From Armatimonadota bacterium (GTDB lineage: Bacteria; Armatimonadota; DTGP01; JAKQQT01): a stretch of 64,000 bases of DNA. The translations under genes and the position numbers were made by a program. Positions 2,104-55,923 of this stretch are shown piece by piece. Within the stretch, counting starts at the first letter, position 1. The number at the start of each line of letters is the position of its first letter. The notes under the pieces are model-generated. The model was not told where the DNA came from. It saw nothing but the letters and a program-made list of their open reading frames with translations, and ran no database searches. The stretch is taken from positions 124,001-188,000 of the forward strand of contig DASXVS010000080.1 of NCBI GenBank assembly GCA_036504095.1, written 5' to 3'.

Positions 2104-3774
2104 ATGCAAGTTCGCAAGTTATCCGGCCGATGGCCGGTCCTGTTCCTCGCAGGCGCATTAGCTCTGCTTTCCGCAGGGTGCAATCGCGTTTCCACCGAGA
2201 CGGCGACGGCCGAGTTCGCCAAGGCCGAGCAGGCAAAGGCGAACGGTCAGTACACCGACGCGCTGAAATCCTATCAGACGGCGGCAAACGGCACCGTGGC
2301 CCAGCCCGGCCGGCCCCCGATACCGACCGAGCAGCTGCAGGCCGATCTCGCTGAGTTCGCATTGGCGCAGGCGCAGCGTGAGGTCAAGGCCGCCGACGCG
2401 CTTGTGGCGCAGGGCCGCTCTCAGCCGGATTACAGCCGGGCGGAGCCGTTTTCCACGGCCGCCATCACGGCGTTCACCGCCCTGGCCCAGGCGCATTCCA
2501 CGAAGACGATCAACGTTTCGCCCACGGACACACTCAAAGTCACCGACTGGCTGGGCTTCTCGACGCAGCCCAAGGCGGGCAGTCCGCTGGATGTCGCCGC
2601 CAGGATGGCCCCTGGGACGAAACTGCCCGCGATCGCTCCCGTGAGCCCCGCCGAGGCGCTGGCATCCCTCAACGCCGGCAAACAGGCGGAACAGCGCGGA
2701 GACGCGGCCGCCGCGCTCGACGATTACGCTCGGGCCGCTCCGGTCGATTTCGCGGACCAGCCACAGGCGCTGGCAAACACCGGCAGGCTGGCTCTCGCCG
2801 CCAAACGGTACGACCTCGCCCTGCAGGCGCTGAAAACGCTCGTTGAGAAATACCCGGAGCGGCAAGTCAGCACCGGCGCCGTGGACGAACGCGTCGTGAA
2901 GGACTGGATCGGAACGCCGGCGGATCACAAGGGCGATTTCCTCGCCGCCGAGGCATTGGCCGACCAGATCAACAGGGGCAAGATCGCGTATAAAACGATG
3001 GACGCCCTCGTAGCCCTCACGGGGCGCAACCCCTGGTATTCGGCTGCGCTGGCCCTGCTGATTTTCACCGTAGTCATCAAGGTCGCGATGACTCCGCTGA
3101 CGAACATCCAGTTCAACTCGACGCGCAAAATGACGGCGATCCAGCCGAAGATGAAGGCGCTGCAGGAACAATGCAAGGACAAGCCCGAGGAACTGAATAA
3201 GCGGATGATGGCGCTCTACAAGGAAGAAGGCGTCAATCCCGTGGGCTGCGGCGCGACGATGCTGATCCAGTTCCCAATCCTCATCGCGTTGTACTCGGTC
3301 ATCCGCCTCTACAACTTCCAGTTCCGCGACGCATACTTCCTCTGGGTCAACCCGCACACGGCATCTCTGGCGCCCGGGATCATCGGTGCGAACCTTGCAC
3401 AGCCGGACATGATTCTGCTGGGACTCTATGCGGTGAGCATGTTCCTCAGCCAGAAGCTGACGGTGATGCCCGCGCAGGATGAACAGCAGCGCCAGCAGCA
3501 GATGATGATGGCGTATATGATGCCCATCATGTTCCTGTTTGTGCTGAAGACATTCCCTTCCGCGTTTGTGCTGTACTGGCTGCTCTTCAACTTCTTCACG
3601 ACGTGGCAGCAGTGGCACCTTCTGAAGAAGAACCCGATTCCCGTGGCATCCCCGGTGACGTCATCCGGCTCCCCGGGCAGCAATGGGACAAGCCAGACGG
3701 CCAGGCCGCAGAGGTCGCCCGAAGACGCTCCCAAACCCGGGCCGAAGCAGACGCCGCCCAAGCGGAAGAAATGA
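2104..3774 (+). CDS. yidC: membrane protein insertase YidC with an N-terminal lipoprotein/TPR-like region
   Basis: YidC/Oxa1 proteins insert and fold inner-membrane proteins. The C-terminal half (about residues 305-510) is a clear Oxa1 core: a first segment SAALALLIFTVVIKVAMTPL, the cytosolic hairpin with NSTRKMTAIQPKM holding the conserved groove arginine, then four more hydrophobic segments. The N-terminus is a lipoprotein signal ending LLSAGC with Cys at residue 26. It is followed by about 230 residues of TPR-like helical repeats (AEFAKAEQAKANGQYTDALK; AGKQAEQRGDAAAALDDYA; RLALAAKRYDLALQALK) in place of the usual beta-sandwich P1 domain. The C-terminus is Pro/Lys rich. Start 2104 gives a good lipoprotein signal; an in-frame ATG at 2026 would add 26 residues. 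Confidence 0.93.
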   Translation: MQVRKLSGRWPVLFLAGALALLSAGCNRVSTETATAEFAKAEQAKANGQYTDALKSYQTAANGTVAQPGRPPIPTEQLQADLAEFALAQAQREVKAADALVAQGRSQPDYSRAEPFSTAAITAFTALAQAHSTKTINVSPTDTLKVTDWLGFSTQPKAGSPLDVAARMAPGTKLPAIAPVSPAEALASLNAGKQAEQRGDAAAALDDYARAAPVDFADQPQALANTGRLALAAKRYDLALQALKTLVEKYPERQVSTGAVDERVVKDWIGTPADHKGDFLAAEALADQINRGKIAYKTMDALVALTGRNPWYSAALALLIFTVVIKVAMTPLTNIQFNSTRKMTAIQPKMKALQEQCKDKPEELNKRMMALYKEEGVNPVGCGATMLIQFPILIALYSVIRLYNFQFRDAYFLWVNPHTASLAPGIIGANLAQPDMILLGLYAVSMFLSQKLTVMPAQDEQQRQQQMMMAYMMPIMFLFVLKTFPSAFVLYWLLFNFFTTWQQWHLLKKNPIPVASPVTSSGSPGSNGTSQTARPQRSPEDAPKPGPKQTPPKRKK

Positions 3775-3811: not shown

Positions 3812-4297
3812 ATGACCGAAACCGAAACCCAGGATGGCCCGGCCGTTAACGCCGGCGAAACCGCTGTCAATATTGCGCAAAAGCTCCTAGATACGGGCCA
3901 CCTCGACGCCAAAGCCATCCTCGTGAGCCAGGATGAGGACTCCGTCGAGCTCGTTCTGGAAGGCCCGGACGCCCCAGCGTTGATCGGCAAGCAGGGCGCG
4001 ACGCTCAACGCGCTGCAATATCTTGTGGGCCTGATGCTGGCGCGCGAGATCCATCAGCGGCTGCGCGTGACGGTGGACGCTGAGAGTTACCGCGCCCGCC
4101 GCGCGGAAACGTTGATCAAAATGGCCAAGGACCTCGCCGCCCAGGTACGCGAGCACAACCAGGAGGCCGTGATGGACCCGCTGAACGCCGCCGAGCGCCG
4201 GATCGTCCATACGGCGCTCGTGGAAGAGCCGGGCATCAGCACGTACTCCGAGGGAGAGGACCCCGATCGCCGCGTGGTCATTTCTCCAAAGGCGTAG
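3812..4297 (+). CDS. jag: RNA-binding protein Jag/KhpB (KH and R3H domains)
   Basis: Jag/KhpB is a cytoplasmic RNA-binding protein usually encoded directly after yidC. Of the 161 residues, the middle holds a KH domain with the nucleic-acid loop IGKQGATLNALQYL. The C-terminus is an R3H-type domain with MDPLNAAERRIVHTAL. The ATG at 3812 has an ideal GGAGGT at 3800-3805, six bases upstream. The protein lacks the long N-terminal Jag_N domain of many homologues and begins with an acidic, Thr-rich stretch. Confidence 0.95.
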   Translation: MTETETQDGPAVNAGETAVNIAQKLLDTGHLDAKAILVSQDEDSVELVLEGPDAPALIGKQGATLNALQYLVGLMLAREIHQRLRVTVDAESYRARRAETLIKMAKDLAAQVREHNQEAVMDPLNAAERRIVHTALVEEPGISTYSEGEDPDRRVVISPKA

Positions 4298-4438: not shown

Positions 4439-5896
4439 ATGGAGAGCACATTGGAACCCCGTGAGATAACCATCCTTGGTCTCGGGCCCGGCGCTCTGAA
4501 CGCGATGAGCGTGGGCGCCTACCGCGCCATCCAGCAGGCCGGGCGCGTGCTTGTCCGAACCGCGCGGCACCCCGCCGTGGACGAACTCCGCGCCGAAGGC
4601 ATCGTTGTTGACTCCCTGGACCACCTCTACGATGGCGCCGCCGACTTCGAGGAGGTCTATGAAGCAGTCGTTGAAGCCGTTCTGACGCGGGCTCAGGCCG
4701 AAACCGGTCTCCTCTATGCGGTGCCCGGCCACCCGCTTTTCGGCGAGCGGACGGTCTCGCTCTTGATGGCGCGAGCGGACGCCATGGGATTGTCGATCCG
4801 TTTGCTCCCCTCCCCGAGTTTCGTGGACGCAGTGCTTGAGGGCGCGCGGGAGACGGCGGACACAGACCTCATCGTCCTTGACGCGCATTGCCTCGATACG
4901 AGCAAACTGGACGCGGCGATCCCGACGGTGGTCTACCAGGTCCACGACCAGGCGACGGCGTCCGAAGCCAAACTCGTTCTCATGGAGCGCTACCCCGACG
5001 AGCATGCGATTCTGATCGTTCGCGAAGGCCGCCCGGCCGTGGCGGTTCCGCTATGGCAGATGGATCGCCACGAATTCGACCACCTCACCAGCGTTTATCT
5101 TCCCCCTGTTCCGGACGACCTGCGCAAACCGACCTGGGACGACCTCGTGCGCGTTATCTCCCGCCTGCGGGCGCCCGGCGGCTGCCCCTGGGACATGGAA
5201 CAGACGCACGAGAGCCTCAAGCGCAACATGCTGGAAGAAGCCTACGAGGTGGTTGAGGCCATCGAGCACGACGACCCCGGCAAACTCGAGGAGGAACTGG
5301 GCGATCTGATGATGCAGCCCATCCTCCACTCCGTGATCGCGCGCGAGGATGGCTTCTTCACGATCGACGATGTGATCGCCGGCATCACCACCAAACTCAT
5401 CCGCCGCCACCCCCATGTATTCGGCTCGCTGGACGTCGAGGACTCCGCCGAGGTTCTCCGCAACTGGGAGGCGATCAAGAGCGCGGAACCCGCCAACGCG
5501 CACCGCACGTCGGCTGTGGATGGGGTCCCGCACACCATGCCCGCCCTGATGCGCGCCATGGACATCAGCAGGAAAGCGGTAAAGGTCGGCTTTGAGTGGC
5601 CCGACGCCGAGGCCGTTCTGGACAAGGTGCAGGAGGAAATCGAAGAACTCCGCGCCGAGCTCAAGGCGAACGACACGGCCCGGGCGACCGACGAACTGGG
5701 CGACCTGCTTTTCGCGCTGGTGAACGTCGCCCGATGGCTCAAGATCGATCCCGAGGAAGCCCTGCGCACGATGGTGGACCGTTTCATCGGCCGTTTCCGG
5801 GCGATGGAAGCGATGGCCACCGCGGACAAGCGCGAACTCAAATCCCTCTCCCCCGAGGAGTGGGATACCTATTGGGAACTGGCCAAAGCCCTCTGA
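4439..5896 (+). CDS. YabN-like fusion: tetrapyrrole-methylase-like domain plus MazG nucleotide pyrophosphohydrolase
   Basis: The first ~215 residues resemble a SAM-dependent tetrapyrrole methylase, with LGLGPG near residue 14 and VPGHPLFGE near residue 95. The rest is a MazG pyrophosphohydrolase, which hydrolyses (d)NTPs to monophosphates and is thought to clean nucleotide pools. The first MazG unit has GGCPWDMEQTHESL and the metal-binding helix EEAYEVVEAI...EELGDLMMQ. The second has KVGFEWPD, EEIEELRAEL and DELGDLLFALVNVARWL. This is the B. subtilis YabN architecture at about its usual length of ~485 residues. An in-frame TTG at 4451 has GGAG (4441-4444) six bases upstream and may be the true start. 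Confidence 0.93.
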   Translation: MESTLEPREITILGLGPGALNAMSVGAYRAIQQAGRVLVRTARHPAVDELRAEGIVVDSLDHLYDGAADFEEVYEAVVEAVLTRAQAETGLLYAVPGHPLFGERTVSLLMARADAMGLSIRLLPSPSFVDAVLEGARETADTDLIVLDAHCLDTSKLDAAIPTVVYQVHDQATASEAKLVLMERYPDEHAILIVREGRPAVAVPLWQMDRHEFDHLTSVYLPPVPDDLRKPTWDDLVRVISRLRAPGGCPWDMEQTHESLKRNMLEEAYEVVEAIEHDDPGKLEEELGDLMMQPILHSVIAREDGFFTIDDVIAGITTKLIRRHPHVFGSLDVEDSAEVLRNWEAIKSAEPANAHRTSAVDGVPHTMPALMRAMDISRKAVKVGFEWPDAEAVLDKVQEEIEELRAELKANDTARATDELGDLLFALVNVARWLKIDPEEALRTMVDRFIGRFRAMEAMATADKRELKSLSPEEWDTYWELAKAL

Positions 5897-49084: not shown

Positions 49085-52000
49085 TCAACGGGCGCGCAGC
49101 ACCAGGTTTCGTATCTCGAAGCGGCGCAGGTCGGCAGTGGCGCTTGAGCCCGACTGCCGGCTCCCGAGCGGGTCTTCGATGAAGTTCACCCATTGCGTTG
49201 ACGTAAAGTCGGCGTCCGATCCCACGGTGGCCTTTCCCGCCTTCCCATCGGCCTCGTAGAGGCGGACGAGGATGCCTTTCGGATCGTCCTCCGCGCGTTT
49301 GAGCACGGTTGCCACGACGCCTTCGCCATCGACCTTCAGGAACGACTTCTGAAGCGGAAACCGCCCCGAGGCGCTTGGCGCCACGGTGGCTGAAACGAAG
49401 GGCTGGTTGAATTCATAGCCCCGTTTCACCTGCTCGGCGCCATACGCGCCGGCGTGCGTCACCAGTGCCGCCTGAACGAAGTGGGCGCGCATATCCGAGG
49501 TGGAATCCAGACGGTTGGGCGTACGGATCAGGGACAGCCGAAGGGTGTTTCCCGTCGCCGAATAGCCGTGTTTGCAGTCGTTCAGGAGGGTTATACCGCC
49601 CTCCGCTGAACTGAGATCCCCTGATTTCAGCACCGCCGCCTCCCGTCCGTCGCTGGGGTGTTCCTCAGTGGCGAATGGAATCTCATAGCGGAAGACGGGG
49701 TCGGACCCGGCCACGTCGCAAGCCAGTTTGAGGAACGGGGTTGACGCCTCGTGGGTCCCCTCCTCCTGCCAATCAATCCACATCGGCAATTCGACCTGCT
49801 CGGATCCTGCATTCAGCACGATGTGCTGGATAATCGTGGAGTGGCGGTATTGCCGCGTCACCTCCACAAGGCAGCGCGCGTGATCGCTCGTCAGAACCTT
49901 CACGGTCGCCGGGCCATCCAGGACCTCGTGCGCGGTGTATTTGCCCACGACCCACGCATCGCCGCTCGGATCCTCATACCAGACTTCGAACCGGTTCGCC
50001 GCACCGCCGGGGGCCAGTGTCTCCCGGTTGTACGGCAGATCCTTGAGGCTGGTGATCAGCCCGTTATCCTTCCGAATCACGACGCTGCGGAGGCCGTTAT
50101 CCAGAGTGAGGGTCTCCGCTTCATCCTTGACCTGAACGATCCCGCAGTTGGAGGCTGACGGGTTGAGCGGACGGATTTCATAAACGCTGTAGCCGAACCC
50201 TGGCACGTTGTGCGCGATAAACGACGCCATCGGTTCGCCGGACGGGTTGTCGCGGCGCTCTCCTGTCTGGAGTGAGATCAGGGAAAGCGCCCCGGCCGGC
50301 GACACAGCGACCCATTCGCCCCGTACAGGACGCGGCCACGGAAACCGCACCTCACCGCTGTGCTGCCACCCGAGCGGGTTGAACGCCATCACGGCCAGAT
50401 CGCTGTCGGGCGGACACGTGGCGAGACTGGCGAGGAATCGAACCGAAGCCCCGGCGATATTACGGCTCTCCGCGACGATCGCGGACAGTTGCTCGACGCT
50501 TTGCCGATACACCTGATGCGTGCCGCTTCCCGGGAGCGAGTCGTGATGCTGGTTGAAAGTGATGCCCCACCAGGCTTCGTCGAAACGGTCCTTCAGGTAG
50601 GGCTGCCCGAAGAGGCCCGCGATGGAAGCCGCCGTTTCGGCGGTGGCTGTTGCGTTCTCGGCGTCGCGGTTCAGGCGCTTCATTTCGGAATGTGTGGTGT
50701 AGCAGCCGTCGATGCGGGGGTCCAGCGATGTCTTCACAACCGGAAGCGCCGTCAGATCCTGCTTCCGCTCCGCGTCGAAGAAAGCCTGCGCCGTGGAATA
50801 CTCCACGGTTGGATAGTACGGCGTCTTCTTCCACGTCTCCGCGATATTCAGTTGCTCACGCGTCGGTCCGCCGCCGTGGTTTCCCACGCCATAAACCCAC
50901 ATGATGTCGGTGGTTCCGGTCGCCTGCTTCCACGGGACCAATTCGTCGAGGATCTTGCCGCTGAGGTTGGAGTCATACCACGAGCCGGATGCGATCTCAT
51001 CGAACGTCAGAGCGCGGGTGCCGTCCGGACCCTCCCACCAGAAGAACGGTTTGCCCTGACCGCCTCGTCCGAAGTAGTAGTTTTCGATGCCGCCCATTTT
51101 GAGCATCTGGGGCATGCTCCACGTGTGACCGAACGTATCCGGTTCGAACCCGACGGTCGCGGTCTTGCCGAACCACTTCCGGAAATATCGCTGTGCCAGC
51201 AGGAAATTGCGGGCGTGGCTCTCCTCCGAAATCATCCACGTATCGCCTTCCGATACGCGCCCTCCCACGATGTCCCACTGGCCGGACTTCACCTTTTGCT
51301 GCATCCGCTTGAACACGTCGGGATAGTGCTCCTGCACGATGCGGTACAGGCTGCTGCTGCTCTGCGAATATTTGAAACCCGGAAACTCGTCCATGAACCG
51401 GACGGCCTGCGAGAACGTCTTGTTGCAGACGTCGTAGATCTCGGGCCACTCCCACTGCCACGCGGGGTCGATATGTCCGTGGCCTACCAGGTGGCCCGTG
51501 AAGCGCTTCATCAGCGGACGCGTGCGGGCGAGGCTCGCCTTGGCCCTGGCCAGGCGGGCGTTGACGCCATCAGGGCTCAACGGCGATCCGGTCTCGATCT
51601 CGTCGATCGCCCCCCTCGCCTCGTCGATCGGTTGCTTGAATTTCGCGCCGTCCGGTGTAAGCGCGGCGAGAGAGGCCACCAATTGGATATCGTGCGCTAC
51701 TTCACGCGCCTGGCCCTCGCGGTCATACGCGGCCACCTGATCGGCGACGACAGCCTTGATATCCGCCTCCGGCGTGATGAGCGAGCGCTCGACCGGACGG
51801 ACGACGACTTTCTGGCTATATCCGGAGATGCCTTGAATCCCTGCTCCGACGGGAAGCGCGCCACTCTGATAGACCCACGTCCACGTCCCGTCCGCGTGGT
51901 GAACACCGACGCTCCCCGCGAAAAAGGCGTATGGCCCCGGTTCGTCACCCTCAAACACGATGCTCCATTTGGTGGTTGTGCACCCGGCGACACTGTCGAG

Positions 52001-52345
52001 CGGAAACACCCTGTGACGCCACTGGCCGCGCGCCGGAGTGATGACCGTCTTGGGATGAAGGTCAAACCCGTTCTGATCCGTGATCTTCCGGTCCCGGAGC
52101 GGCAGGCCCTGGTCCAGTTCGGCATCCACACCGCCGCTTATCTCCGCCGAGTCGGGACTGATGAAGAGGTCATACTCGAGGCGGTCTCCGGCTGCGAAGG
52201 TGACGCGCTGGTTCGACAGGTTGTAATACACCATCGAAGCGCCGCCTTTGGCGAGTTCGGTTCCCGCCATCATCATAACGGTGTCCGCGGACGCGGCAGT
52301 GCCAGACACCAGAGCCATCACTACCAGTGGGATCACGATGCGCAT
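49085..52345 (-). CDS. secreted GH38 alpha-mannosidase (copy 2, downstream)
   Basis: GH38 enzymes are retaining, zinc-dependent alpha-mannosidases that trim mannose from glycans. The 1086-residue protein has a signal peptide (PLVVMALVSGTAASA), then a ~250-residue beta-rich N-terminal region. The GH38 catalytic domain has the zinc ligands in VGHGHIDPAWQWEWPE and the nucleophile Asp in GFEPDTFGHTWSMPQ. Further motifs are WWEGPDGTRALTFDE, GVGNHGGGPTREQL and FNQHHDSLPGSGTHQVY. C-terminal sandwich domains follow. It ends in FEIRNLVLRAR, aligning with the end of its neighbour. It is the second gene of a tandem pair, separated from copy 1 by 55 bases. Confidence 0.95.
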   Translation of the reverse strand: MRIVIPLVVMALVSGTAASADTVMMMAGTELAKGGASMVYYNLSNQRVTFAAGDRLEYDLFISPDSAEISGGVDAELDQGLPLRDRKITDQNGFDLHPKTVITPARGQWRHRVFPLDSVAGCTTTKWSIVFEGDEPGPYAFFAGSVGVHHADGTWTWVYQSGALPVGAGIQGISGYSQKVVVRPVERSLITPEADIKAVVADQVAAYDREGQAREVAHDIQLVASLAALTPDGAKFKQPIDEARGAIDEIETGSPLSPDGVNARLARAKASLARTRPLMKRFTGHLVGHGHIDPAWQWEWPEIYDVCNKTFSQAVRFMDEFPGFKYSQSSSSLYRIVQEHYPDVFKRMQQKVKSGQWDIVGGRVSEGDTWMISEESHARNFLLAQRYFRKWFGKTATVGFEPDTFGHTWSMPQMLKMGGIENYYFGRGGQGKPFFWWEGPDGTRALTFDEIASGSWYDSNLSGKILDELVPWKQATGTTDIMWVYGVGNHGGGPTREQLNIAETWKKTPYYPTVEYSTAQAFFDAERKQDLTALPVVKTSLDPRIDGCYTTHSEMKRLNRDAENATATAETAASIAGLFGQPYLKDRFDEAWWGITFNQHHDSLPGSGTHQVYRQSVEQLSAIVAESRNIAGASVRFLASLATCPPDSDLAVMAFNPLGWQHSGEVRFPWPRPVRGEWVAVSPAGALSLISLQTGERRDNPSGEPMASFIAHNVPGFGYSVYEIRPLNPSASNCGIVQVKDEAETLTLDNGLRSVVIRKDNGLITSLKDLPYNRETLAPGGAANRFEVWYEDPSGDAWVVGKYTAHEVLDGPATVKVLTSDHARCLVEVTRQYRHSTIIQHIVLNAGSEQVELPMWIDWQEEGTHEASTPFLKLACDVAGSDPVFRYEIPFATEEHPSDGREAAVLKSGDLSSAEGGITLLNDCKHGYSATGNTLRLSLIRTPNRLDSTSDMRAHFVQAALVTHAGAYGAEQVKRGYEFNQPFVSATVAPSASGRFPLQKSFLKVDGEGVVATVLKRAEDDPKGILVRLYEADGKAGKATVGSDADFTSTQWVNFIEDPLGSRQSGSSATADLRRFEIRNLVLRAR

Positions 52346-52359
52346 GAGAGCGGTCTCCC

Positions 52360-52381
52360 GGGGCGAGGCATGCCTCGCCCC
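52360..52381. repeat. perfect 22-bp palindrome GGGGCGAGGCA/TGCCTCGCCCC
   Basis: A perfect palindrome with no loop lies in the 55-base gap between the two mannosidase genes. It may form a hairpin that sets relative expression of the two genes, or be one more member of the intergenic repeat set. Confidence 0.85.
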
Positions 52382-52400
52382 TTACGGTATCAACCGGGTG

Positions 52401-55400
52401 CTACTTGGTCTTCGCAACCTTGGCGGGCCTGGCGGCCGGTCTGGCAGCCACTGGTTTGTCGCGATAAAGCAGCAGGTTGCGGATCTCGTATTTATGCAGG
52501 TTGACGTTGGTTACGGCTGATGTGCTGATGCCGGACAACGGATTCTCCACGAAATTCACCCATTGCGTGGCCGCGAGAGTCGTATCCGAGGAGACCGTGA
52601 CCGGGGACTGGTTGCCGCTCGCTTCGTAGAAACGGACGAGCATCGCCTTCGGATCGTCTTCCGAGCGCTTGAGCACCGTGGAAACGACGTTGTCGCCCAC
52701 AACGAGCACGAACGATTTCTCCAGAGGCAGGGCGCCGTTGGAGGACGGCGGCACGCGGGCGCCGACAAACTCCTGGTTGAACTCGAACCCGCGCTTGACC
52801 TGCGCCGCTCCGTACGCGCCCGTGTGCGGGAAGAGGGCGAGGTTGATGAAGTGCTCGCGCTGGTCCGCCATCGCGTCGGGTTCGTAACTGGCCCGGAGCA
52901 GCGAGACCCGAAGTGAGTTTCCTTCGGCGGTGTGGCCGCTCTTGGAGTCGTTGACAAGCGTGATCCCGCCTTCGGCGTTGCTCAGGTCCGCCGATTTCAA
53001 TGCGACGCACTCTTCGCCGTTGGCGGGGCGTTGTATCGTGGCGAAGGGAATCTCATACGAGGCCTTCAGACCGTCACCGGCCACGTCGCACGCCATCTTG
53101 AGCAGCGGCGCGGGGTCCTTGCCGTTGCCGAATTCCTGCCAGTCGACCCAGATGGGCGTTTCCACCTGATCCGCGCCGGCCCGCAGGACGACGTGCTGTG
53201 TAATGCGGCTCTTGCCGTAGTCGCGGCTGATCTCGATAATCACAGCGCCGGGACCGTTGTTCAGGACCTTGACCTGGGCGTCGCCGTCAAGCGCTTTGTG
53301 GCCGGCATACGCGCCAAGCTGCCAGGCGCTCATCCCGCCGGGCTTCTCTTCCCATATCTCCAGCCGGTTGCCCGCCCCGCCGGCCGCGATCATCTCGCGC
53401 TTCGCGTTACTGTCATACACGCTGGTGATGAGGCCATTGCGCTTGTTGACTGTGACTTTGAGGCTGGCGTTTTCAATGACGTAGGCATCTACACCGCTCT
53501 GGTTGAGGGTTACCGCGTCGAGAAGCCTGTCGCTCCCCGATACGCGCCGCATCCCGAATACCCGATATCCGAAGCCCGGGACGTCTCTGGCCTCGAAGAC
53601 GGCCATCGGCTCACCGGACGGGTTGTCCGGGCGCAGGCCGCGCAGGATGGTCACCGGGACCGTCGAGCCGTCCGGGGCGGTGGCGACCCACTGGTCGGCG
53701 TCGGGCTGGTACGGCCACGGCGCCTTCACGATGCCTGAGTGCTTCCAGCCAAGCCCGTTGAAGGCGACGACGTTGTAGTCCGCTCCCTCAGACCGCTTCA
53801 TGAATGTGGCAAGGTACCTGACTGAGTCACCGGCGATGTTCCTGCTGCTGGCGACAATTGCGCTAAGCTGTTCGCGGCTCTTCACATAGGACTCGTGGAT
53901 GGCGCTTCCGGGCAGGGTGTCGTGGTGGTGGTTGAAGCAGATGCCTTCCCAGTTTTCATTGAAAGTGCGCTGCGGATAGGGCTGGCCGAAGAGATTGGCG
54001 ATTGTGGCGGCCGATTCGGCAGTGGCGGTGGCGTTCTCGGCATCGCGGTTAAGGCGTTTGAGGTCGCTGTGCGTTGTGTAGCATCCGTTGAATACGGGGT
54101 TCAGTTCGTCCGCGATGGTCGGGACCTTGCTCAGGTCACCCTTCTTGATCGCGTCGAAGAATTTGGTGGCTGTCGAGAACTTGACGTTGGGATAGAACGG
54201 CGCCTTCTGCCATTTGCGGCCTTCCTGAATCTGTTCCCGCGTGACACCGCCGCCGTGGTCTCCCACTCCGTAGATCCACAGGATCGAATTTGTGCCCGTC
54301 TTGTCATACCATGGGAACACTTCGTTCAGAGTGCTCTGAGTGAGGTTTCCCCCATACCACGAACCGGAAGCGGGTTCGTCAAACGCCAGAACCTTCGTCC
54401 CGTCCGGGCCTTCCCACCAGAAGAGCGGTTTGTCCTTGCCTCCGCGGCAGAAGTAGTAGGTGTCACACCCGCCCATCTTGATGATTTCGGGCATGCTCCA
54501 TGTATGGCCGAACGTATCCGGTTCCCAGCCCACGGTCGCGGTCTTGCCGAACGCGTCCTTGAAATAGCGCTGGCCGAGGAGGAAATGGCGTGCGTGGCTC
54601 TCCTCGCTGATCATGTTCGTGTCGCCTTCGCACACGCGTCCTCCAACAACGTCCCAGGTCCCCGCCTTGACCTTCTGCTGGATGCGTTTGAACACGTCCG
54701 GGTAGTAATCCTGCGTGGCCTTATAGAGCGCACTACTGCTTTGGCTGTATCCGAACCCGGGGAACTCGTCCATGAGGTTCGAGATTGTGTTGAACGTCGC
54801 GCGGCACACCTCGTAGGACTCCGGCCATTCCCAGAGCCACTGAAAATCGATGTGGCTATGGCCGACCAGATAGCCGGTGAAGGCCTGCATCAGCGGGTGC
54901 GTATGCCCGAGTTGTTCCCGGCCGGAAGTCAGGAGGGAGTTCATCTCCTCGGCGCTCATGTCATGGCTGGATTTGACCTTGTCCAGTGCCTGGCGGGCCG
55001 CCGTGATGTATTTCGCGTAACCGGCGGCGTCCGGCGCTGATTTGGCGAATTTCTCAACGTATTCGACGTCGTTCTGGAACTGCGTGATGTCGGAATCGCG
55101 CCTGAACGCGGCCATCTGGTCCGCCACGACCTTATCGATGTTGCCGGCCGCAACCCAATCGCGATTTACCGCGCGAAGGACGATTTCGCGGCTGTATCCT
55201 ACGTTGCTGATGTCGCCCGCGGGCGCCGGCGCAGGGCCACCGTTGTACGCCCAATCCCAGGTGCCGTCCGCGTGCCGGATGCCGTAGGCGCCGACAAATA
55301 TGACATATGGTCCCGGCTTGTCGCCTTCAAAGGCGATGGTCCAGGTGCGAACAGTCATACCCTCGAGTGAATCCAGTTTGATGACGCGATGATACCATTT

Positions 55401-55748
55401 GTCCTTAGCCTGATCGACCACCTGCTCCGGATGAATCCGCACTCCGTTCTGGTCCGGGATTTTCCTGTCGCGCAGCCCGATCGTTCCGTCCGCCCACTCC
55501 AGATCGGCGCCGCCGTTGATTTCGGTGGAGCTATGCGGGATGAAGAGGTCGTACTGCAGGGTGTCGCCTTTGCGAAGGGTGACGCTCTTGTGAGAGACCG
55601 GGTAATAAAGATAGAAATTGCCGCCGGTTGATACGTTATTGCCGGCCATCATCAACACGGTCTGCGCGGCGAGGGAGACCGGGGGTTGGTAGGCGGCCAG
55701 GCAAGCGCTCGCCGTCGCTGCCAACACGGTAAGGAGGGGCCATTTCAT
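52401..55748 (-). CDS. secreted GH38 alpha-mannosidase (copy 1, upstream)
   Basis: The 1115-residue paralogue of the downstream gene shares the same architecture. It has a signal peptide (TVLAATASACLAAYQPPVSLAAQ), a beta-rich N-terminal region beginning TVLMMAGNNVSTGGNFYLYY, and the catalytic domain with zinc motif VGHSHIDFQWLWEWPE, nucleophile motif GWEPDTFGHTWSMPE, WWEGPDGTKVLAFDE, GVGDHGGGVTREQI and FNHHHDTLPGSAIHE. Metal and nucleophile residues are conserved. The aglycone-side PAWQW of the other copy is FQWLW here, suggesting different specificity. It adds an Ala/Pro/Lys tail (VAARPAARPAKVAKTK). ATG 55748 with AAGGAA upstream was preferred to GTG 55751. Confidence 0.95.
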   Translation of the reverse strand: MKWPLLTVLAATASACLAAYQPPVSLAAQTVLMMAGNNVSTGGNFYLYYPVSHKSVTLRKGDTLQYDLFIPHSSTEINGGADLEWADGTIGLRDRKIPDQNGVRIHPEQVVDQAKDKWYHRVIKLDSLEGMTVRTWTIAFEGDKPGPYVIFVGAYGIRHADGTWDWAYNGGPAPAPAGDISNVGYSREIVLRAVNRDWVAAGNIDKVVADQMAAFRRDSDITQFQNDVEYVEKFAKSAPDAAGYAKYITAARQALDKVKSSHDMSAEEMNSLLTSGREQLGHTHPLMQAFTGYLVGHSHIDFQWLWEWPESYEVCRATFNTISNLMDEFPGFGYSQSSSALYKATQDYYPDVFKRIQQKVKAGTWDVVGGRVCEGDTNMISEESHARHFLLGQRYFKDAFGKTATVGWEPDTFGHTWSMPEIIKMGGCDTYYFCRGGKDKPLFWWEGPDGTKVLAFDEPASGSWYGGNLTQSTLNEVFPWYDKTGTNSILWIYGVGDHGGGVTREQIQEGRKWQKAPFYPNVKFSTATKFFDAIKKGDLSKVPTIADELNPVFNGCYTTHSDLKRLNRDAENATATAESAATIANLFGQPYPQRTFNENWEGICFNHHHDTLPGSAIHESYVKSREQLSAIVASSRNIAGDSVRYLATFMKRSEGADYNVVAFNGLGWKHSGIVKAPWPYQPDADQWVATAPDGSTVPVTILRGLRPDNPSGEPMAVFEARDVPGFGYRVFGMRRVSGSDRLLDAVTLNQSGVDAYVIENASLKVTVNKRNGLITSVYDSNAKREMIAAGGAGNRLEIWEEKPGGMSAWQLGAYAGHKALDGDAQVKVLNNGPGAVIIEISRDYGKSRITQHVVLRAGADQVETPIWVDWQEFGNGKDPAPLLKMACDVAGDGLKASYEIPFATIQRPANGEECVALKSADLSNAEGGITLVNDSKSGHTAEGNSLRVSLLRASYEPDAMADQREHFINLALFPHTGAYGAAQVKRGFEFNQEFVGARVPPSSNGALPLEKSFVLVVGDNVVSTVLKRSEDDPKAMLVRFYEASGNQSPVTVSSDTTLAATQWVNFVENPLSGISTSAVTNVNLHKYEIRNLLLYRDKPVAARPAARPAKVAKTK

Positions 55749-55923
55749 CACGGTGGGGTTCCTTTCAAGCTAACTGCGGGCGCATCTCTGAAATCGGCGC
55801 TATTACTCGAAAGGATAGCGGCGATTGGCGACGTTGGAAAGTGTGAGGCGCGGACGATTGACAGGTGCGCCGATTGAAGGCGGCCACACCTGGCGCTGCG
55901 CCGTATCTGGTGTAACGAATAAA

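Follow-up and report, generated by a model that had tools for sequence, protein, structure and literature searches.

A helical, TPR-type extracytoplasmic domain on the YidC insertase of Armatimonadota

The YidC insertase encoded in a 64,000-nucleotide stretch of the genome of an Armatimonadota bacterium (the window) carries, between Cys26 and an ordinary Oxa1 core, about 270 residues (27-300) that are helical and of TPR type. By computation, this protein is the only one of its kind in the genome, its helical region consists of what we take to be two tandem copies of a module, the second with a TPR fold, and no P1 domain (the beta-sandwich found at this position in E. coli) is detectable in it; regions of the same kind appear, from sequence comparison, in YidC proteins throughout most of the phylum. 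Nearly all bacteria depend on YidC, and the role of its periplasmic domain is debated, E. coli tolerating large P1 deletions. A phylum with an unrelated protein-binding fold at the P1 position is a natural domain swap; beside the two arrangements known from textbooks, it is a third way in which the extracytoplasmic part of YidC is built.

The yidC locus and its Oxa1 core

The gene (2104-3774, + strand; 556 aa) lies in the standard arrangement rpmH-rnpA-yidD-yidC-khpB. This cluster starts on the + strand with a frame at 1238-1396 that we take, from its sequence, to be rpmH (bL34), and it continues on the same strand with rnpA (RNase P protein; 1406-1759; PF00825, E=1.9e-21) and yidD (insertion efficiency factor; 1756-1992; PF01809, E=7.7e-27); khpB/jag, for a KH-R3H RNA-binding protein, follows yidC at 3812-4297, also on the + strand (PF01424, E=2.1e-18; PF13083, E=1.1e-11). 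For yidC, the start at 2104 is better than the ATG at 2026, which would put 26 extra residues ahead of the signal peptide. Antisense to the gene runs a 486-codon open frame (2158-3618, - strand) that most likely is no gene and just mirrors the GC-rich coding strand. A fusion artefact or pseudogene was rejected as an explanation of yidC, the frame having no internal stop and relatives sharing the architecture; a second YidC paralogue was likewise rejected, profile search of the whole 4.7-Mb genome (98.6% complete) having given a single YidC/Oxa1 protein, that of 2104-3774.

The clear Oxa1 core reported in the initial annotation is borne out by two profiles that match above their cut-offs: PF02096 at residues 316-506 (E=2.4e-46; 158.2 bits, cut-off 35) and TIGR03592 at residues 314-506 (E=4.4e-49; 167.1 bits, cut-off 84.3). 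By the profiles and the model, the core (3043-3621, + strand) has five transmembrane helices and a groove residue, Lys326, at whose site 102 of 115 armatimonad relatives have K or R. The model superposes on the YidCs of Bacillus halodurans (3wo7; Z 16.7, 206 residues, 3.6 A) and E. coli (6al2; Z 16.6, 195 residues, 2.8 A), and the YidC of the nearest named relative, an Armatimonadetes MAG (L054), is 44% identical to residues 204-506. Behind the core comes a basic cytoplasmic tail of 50 residues ending in PPKRKK (3622-3771, + strand), with no TPR and no predicted structure, model confidence there being low. Read from its core, the product appears to be the cell's sole housekeeping insertase.

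Signal peptide and membrane anchor

The coding sequence begins with a lipoprotein-type signal peptide that ends at Cys26 (2104-2181, + strand). The N-terminus of the protein, MQVRKLSGRWPVLFLAGALALLSAGC, contains the lipobox LLSAGC (residues 21-26, with Ser at position -3) and matches PROSITE pattern PS51257. The aligned cysteine is conserved in a YidC of the same family (L013, VSGC) and in one of the same class (L054, ASGC), and the genome encodes LspA plus two Lgt matches, which makes the lipidation of Cys26 predicted from the sequence plausible; the lipobox, as originally proposed, can stand. The presence of BamA in the genome makes a diderm cell probable and, with it, a periplasmic location of the N-terminal domain of YidC.

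The initial annotation had described the type as lipoprotein-anchored, which is apt for the window YidC and for its relatives L013 and L054 but not universal in the phylum: among the 134 YidCs that we extracted from Armatimonadota, about 37 have lipidated-type N-termini by the pattern test, signal and anchor classes drawn from such simple rules being approximate. The lipidated type is found in every sampled member of nine families; the other YidCs resemble cleaved-signal or TM-anchored forms, which makes three anchor kinds across the phylum. With the anchor varying in this way, the lipid appears to be a lineage-specific option and the helical domain the constant feature of armatimonad YidC.

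The helical TPR-type region

In the AlphaFold model of the full-length protein, residues 31-306 form helices only, with no strand of three residues or more. This model was built from 22 sequences, only two of which cover the N-terminus, and its confidence in the helices lies mostly between 65 and 89, with values under 50 at residues 132-160 and 168-177; a model of residues 27-310 alone has the same helices at a low mean pLDDT of 52. Two TPR motifs (residues 182-252; 2647-2859, + strand) superpose on the designed and consensus TPRs 6vfh and 2fo7 at rmsd 2.3-2.7 A over about 70 residues, with 25-26% identity. The Z-scores of these superpositions, around 9, lie in a range where helical repeats can match through a common arrangement, and the case for TPR therefore rests on sequence evidence together with the fold.

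Within the window YidC alone, no Pfam TPR family exceeds its cut-off, and TPR_16 matches weakly (E=0.005; 17.7 bits, cut-off 32.7). Relatives do pass, L018 with TPR_16 (34.2 against 32.7) and L019 with TPR_14 (25.8 against 23.5), and in single Pfam scans of 115 armatimonad N-termini the TPR families alone recur. A pooled profile of the same 115 N-termini has as its best sequence match among solved structures the TPR domain of CpoB (6g5s, E=1.9e-7). Foldseek matches outside YidC are mainly TPR proteins, none of them at E<0.001, and for the low-confidence N-terminal model they include BamD. An 8-position TPR consensus count gave no separation (best 6/8, equalled or bettered by 87 of 1000 shuffles) and was set aside as evidence.

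The region had been described as about 230 residues of TPR-like helices, and its helical, TPR-type character is confirmed; its length is instead about 270 residues (27-300), in two modules of which the second alone is confidently TPR. The wording "TPR-like" is justified by the AlphaFold model, the superposition, the relatives that pass Pfam cut-offs and the CpoB match, the protein's own Pfam match being insufficient alone. Structure prediction thus returned all helices and no P1-like beta fold for the N-terminal region, and the profile search for repeats found its support in the pooled profile and in L018 and L019. The TPR module is joined to the membrane core, in the AlphaFold model, by a long linker helix (residues 273-306; 2920-3021, + strand) that contains a conserved YK-x-MD-x-LV motif, with Tyr296 and Val303 each present in 109 of 115 alignment rows.

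Two modules from a tandem duplication

Alignment to the module of L013 divides the region into module A (residues 27-178; 2182-2637, + strand), a diverged first copy, and module B (residues 179-272; 2638-2919, + strand), orthologous to the single module of the relatives. The model places the helices of module A at residues 31-46, 50-61, 75-102, 114-131 and 143-149, and those of module B at 182-197, 201-211, 220-232, 236-249 and 262-269. Both L013 and L054 have one module, about 125-140 residues from Cys to core, which aligns to window residues 179-296. Over that span, used here to test module B, the score against the L013 module is 176 (reached by 0/1000 shuffles); residues 27-178, aligned end to end with the same module, score 71, against a shuffled mean of 21.8 (sd 7.5; 0/1000). 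Compared directly, modules A and B have weak similarity, 18 of 2000 shuffles scoring as high, and their helix order matches in the model. Because of the comparison through L013 as an intermediate, and because of the matching helix order, we take the N-terminal region as two tandem copies of which the first is strongly diverged, the direct A-B similarity being suggestive. The helical, TPR fold of module B is well supported; module A, as modelled, appears TPR-like, the confident TPR pair being confined to residues 182-252 of module B.

Absence of the P1 domain

The P1 profile PF14849 (YidC_periplas) has no match in the window YidC or in the rest of its genome, and it detects no P1 in the regular YidC of any of the 151 Armatimonadota genomes surveyed; as a positive control, it matches 9 of 10 YidCs from other phyla in the same scan. 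The control from Thermotoga maritima gives no match, though its solved YidC (5y83) has a larger N-terminal region, and a PF14849 negative is therefore not decisive alone. A hidden P1 beta-domain in residues 27-300 was rejected on the combination of no PF14849 match, despite working controls, and models without strands. Since several control genomes of other lineages are also without a PF14849 match, being without P1 is no rarity as such; the statement that the TPR region stands in place of P1 is accurate as a comparison with Gram-negative YidC, and not necessarily as history.

Among the 151 genomes, a full PF14849 match occurs in G124 alone, on a second YidC (L032/L193, G124:C251). This is an ordinary P1-type YidC (E=4.9e-22) beside the armatimonad-type L146 and, in an assembly with 3% contamination, is either a contaminant or a transferred copy. 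Seven other PF14849 matches are weak, cover part of the profile and fall in other reading frames distant from yidC.

Occurrence across the phylum

Fragments aside, every armatimonad YidC extracted has about 130-300 extracytoplasmic residues at its N-terminus. At a threshold of E<1e-3, leave-family-out profiles, from which the linker motif was excluded, recognise the N-terminus in 96 of 131 proteins; counted by family, 30 of 36 are recognised. Of 393 shuffled decoys, none did better than 0.018 in any run. For the window protein such a profile gives 0.063 over the whole two-module region and 4e-4 over module B alone. Mean column identity in the alignment of these N-termini is 8%. Against sampled loci from other phyla, the profile of armatimonad N-termini gives no notable match, the best E being 0.036. 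To judge by the profiles, YidC appears to bear related helical domains in most of the phylum, and conservation of the fusion there is borne out by the 30 families in which the helical domain is recognised.

The profile of the other families does not recognise the N-termini of family f13 (15 proteins sampled: L023, L028, L168, L170, L173, L175-L177, L179, L180, L185, L186, L188-L190), which are about 170-200 residues long, lie behind a TM anchor and are either very diverged or another domain. N-termini of about 290-300 residues in families f10, f20, f26 and f29 (L009, L011, L050-L053, L113, L115, L118, L119, L121, L123, L128, L140), have an apparent extra small beta (OB-like) stretch (LRGKLVEVSGLY...VTGTIE) preceding the TPR part, for which no Pfam name was found in the three proteins scanned.

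Comparison with known systems

E. coli YidC (PF14849 + PF02096) and the window protein share the Oxa1 core and its basic groove residue, a large N-terminal domain that lies outside the cytoplasm and adjoins the signal or anchor segment, and a diderm cell with SecDF; in E. coli that domain is a beta-sandwich and TM1 is kept, whereas in the armatimonad protein it is helical and of TPR type, behind a lipidated-looking N-terminus. With the Gram-positive YidCs (SpoIIIJ/YqjG, S. mutans YidC1/2) the protein shares a cleavable lipoprotein-type signal, itself a prediction in S. mutans (PMC8595059), and the five-helix core, but those proteins are without a large extracytoplasmic domain, where the window YidC has some 270 residues between the predicted lipidated Cys and the core. 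In the literature, the one fusion of TPR to an Oxa1-family protein that we came upon is at the C-terminus of the mitochondrial Oxa2 of plants and green algae, and a 2009 survey of Oxa proteins found TPR in no other Oxa lineage (PMC2706819). The TPR of Oxa2 is C-terminal and mitochondrial and that of the window YidC N-terminal (residues 27-300) and extracytoplasmic; with opposite ends and different compartments, the two are likely independent fusions.

YfgM likewise provides a TPR scaffold in the periplasm at the translocon, tethered to the inner membrane (PMC9643414), but it does so as a protein of its own whose TM anchor is not cleaved; in the window YidC the TPR lies within the insertase. 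No common ancestry is claimed. CpoB (YbgF), whose TPR domain the phylum profile matches, is a soluble periplasmic cell-division coordinator and has no insertase core. In a literature search covering papers open without subscription, we found no published description of an extracytoplasmic TPR domain on a bacterial YidC.

Possible roles of the TPR-type domain

By analogy with known translocon components, we lean towards the hypothesis that the TPR-type domain serves as a scaffold on which partners dock where the Sec-YidC holotranslocon opens to the periplasm, and that it replaces the contacts of P1 there. The YidC core would insert membrane proteins by the usual groove mechanism, and the domain, tethered to the membrane twice (by lipidated Cys26 at its start and by helix 273-306 leading into the core), would bind SecDF and/or chaperones of the SurA/PpiD type instead of making the P1 contacts, in a way comparable to the separate TPR protein YfgM binding PpiD; the module duplication in this species would then provide a longer scaffold. 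The genome encodes SecDF as one 906-residue frame and two SurA_N_3 chaperone candidates, and a search of it for YfgM-type (TPR_21) proteins gave no strong match and one marginal one. In E. coli, P1 contacts SecF/SecD and may bind emerging or inserting chains, and large P1 deletions are tolerated (PMC7618853), which means that the role being replaced may itself be dispensable. The TPR domain of YfgM binds PpiD at the Sec translocon (SecYEG; PMC9643414). TPR folds serve many roles, which weighs against assigning docking. If the domain does bind SecDF or a PpiD-type chaperone, this would suggest that docking, and not a specific fold, is what the periplasmic domain of YidC provides. A broader and decidedly speculative idea is that the TPR scaffold on the phylum's YidC unites jobs that in E. 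coli belong to P1, to YfgM and possibly to a link with outer-membrane assembly, individual lineages modifying it through a lipid or a helix anchor and through duplication of the module.

Three other readings of the domain are less probable. That the domain itself binds nascent or inserting clients, the insertase thus having its own chaperone or holdase built in on the periplasmic side, we consider unlikely: E. coli P1 has been proposed to contact inserting chains (PMC7618853), and the long helix joining domain to core would, in the model, position the domain above the exit site, but substrate crosslinks to YfgM, a similar periplasmic TPR protein, were sought and not found (PMC9643414). The present computations do not discriminate between client binding and docking. 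CpoB as the top solved-structure sequence match of the pooled profile, BamD as one of the Foldseek matches to the N-terminal model and BamA in the genome would together agree with a link from YidC to outer-membrane or cell-wall assembly, the domain acting in a CpoB- or BamD-like manner to bridge to complexes of BAM or Tol-Pal type. We hold this very unlikely, as CpoB and BamD are well-known periplasmic TPR proteins whose match may reflect nothing beyond their fold, confidence in the N-terminal model is low, and the yidC neighbourhood is the usual cluster, without bam or tol genes.

The low column identity, the variation in length (about 130 to 300 residues) and the three anchor kinds across the phylum would be expected if the N-terminus were a spacer or helical stalk, under loose constraint and binding nothing in particular, and so would the survival of E. 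coli YidC with large P1 deletions (PMC7618853). Yet leave-family-out profiles still detect homology in 30 of 36 families, the sequence has stayed of TPR type, and the module was retained after its duplication, a conservation of fold unexpected for a pure spacer, which leaves this explanation quite improbable.

Other genes in the window

Directly past khpB, on the + strand (4439-5896), lies a fused tetrapyrrole methylase-MazG gene with two MazG stretches (YabN-like). Further along, on the - strand (49085-55751), two GH38 alpha-mannosidase genes adjoin each other, apparently as a tandem pair; each encodes about 1,100 residues.
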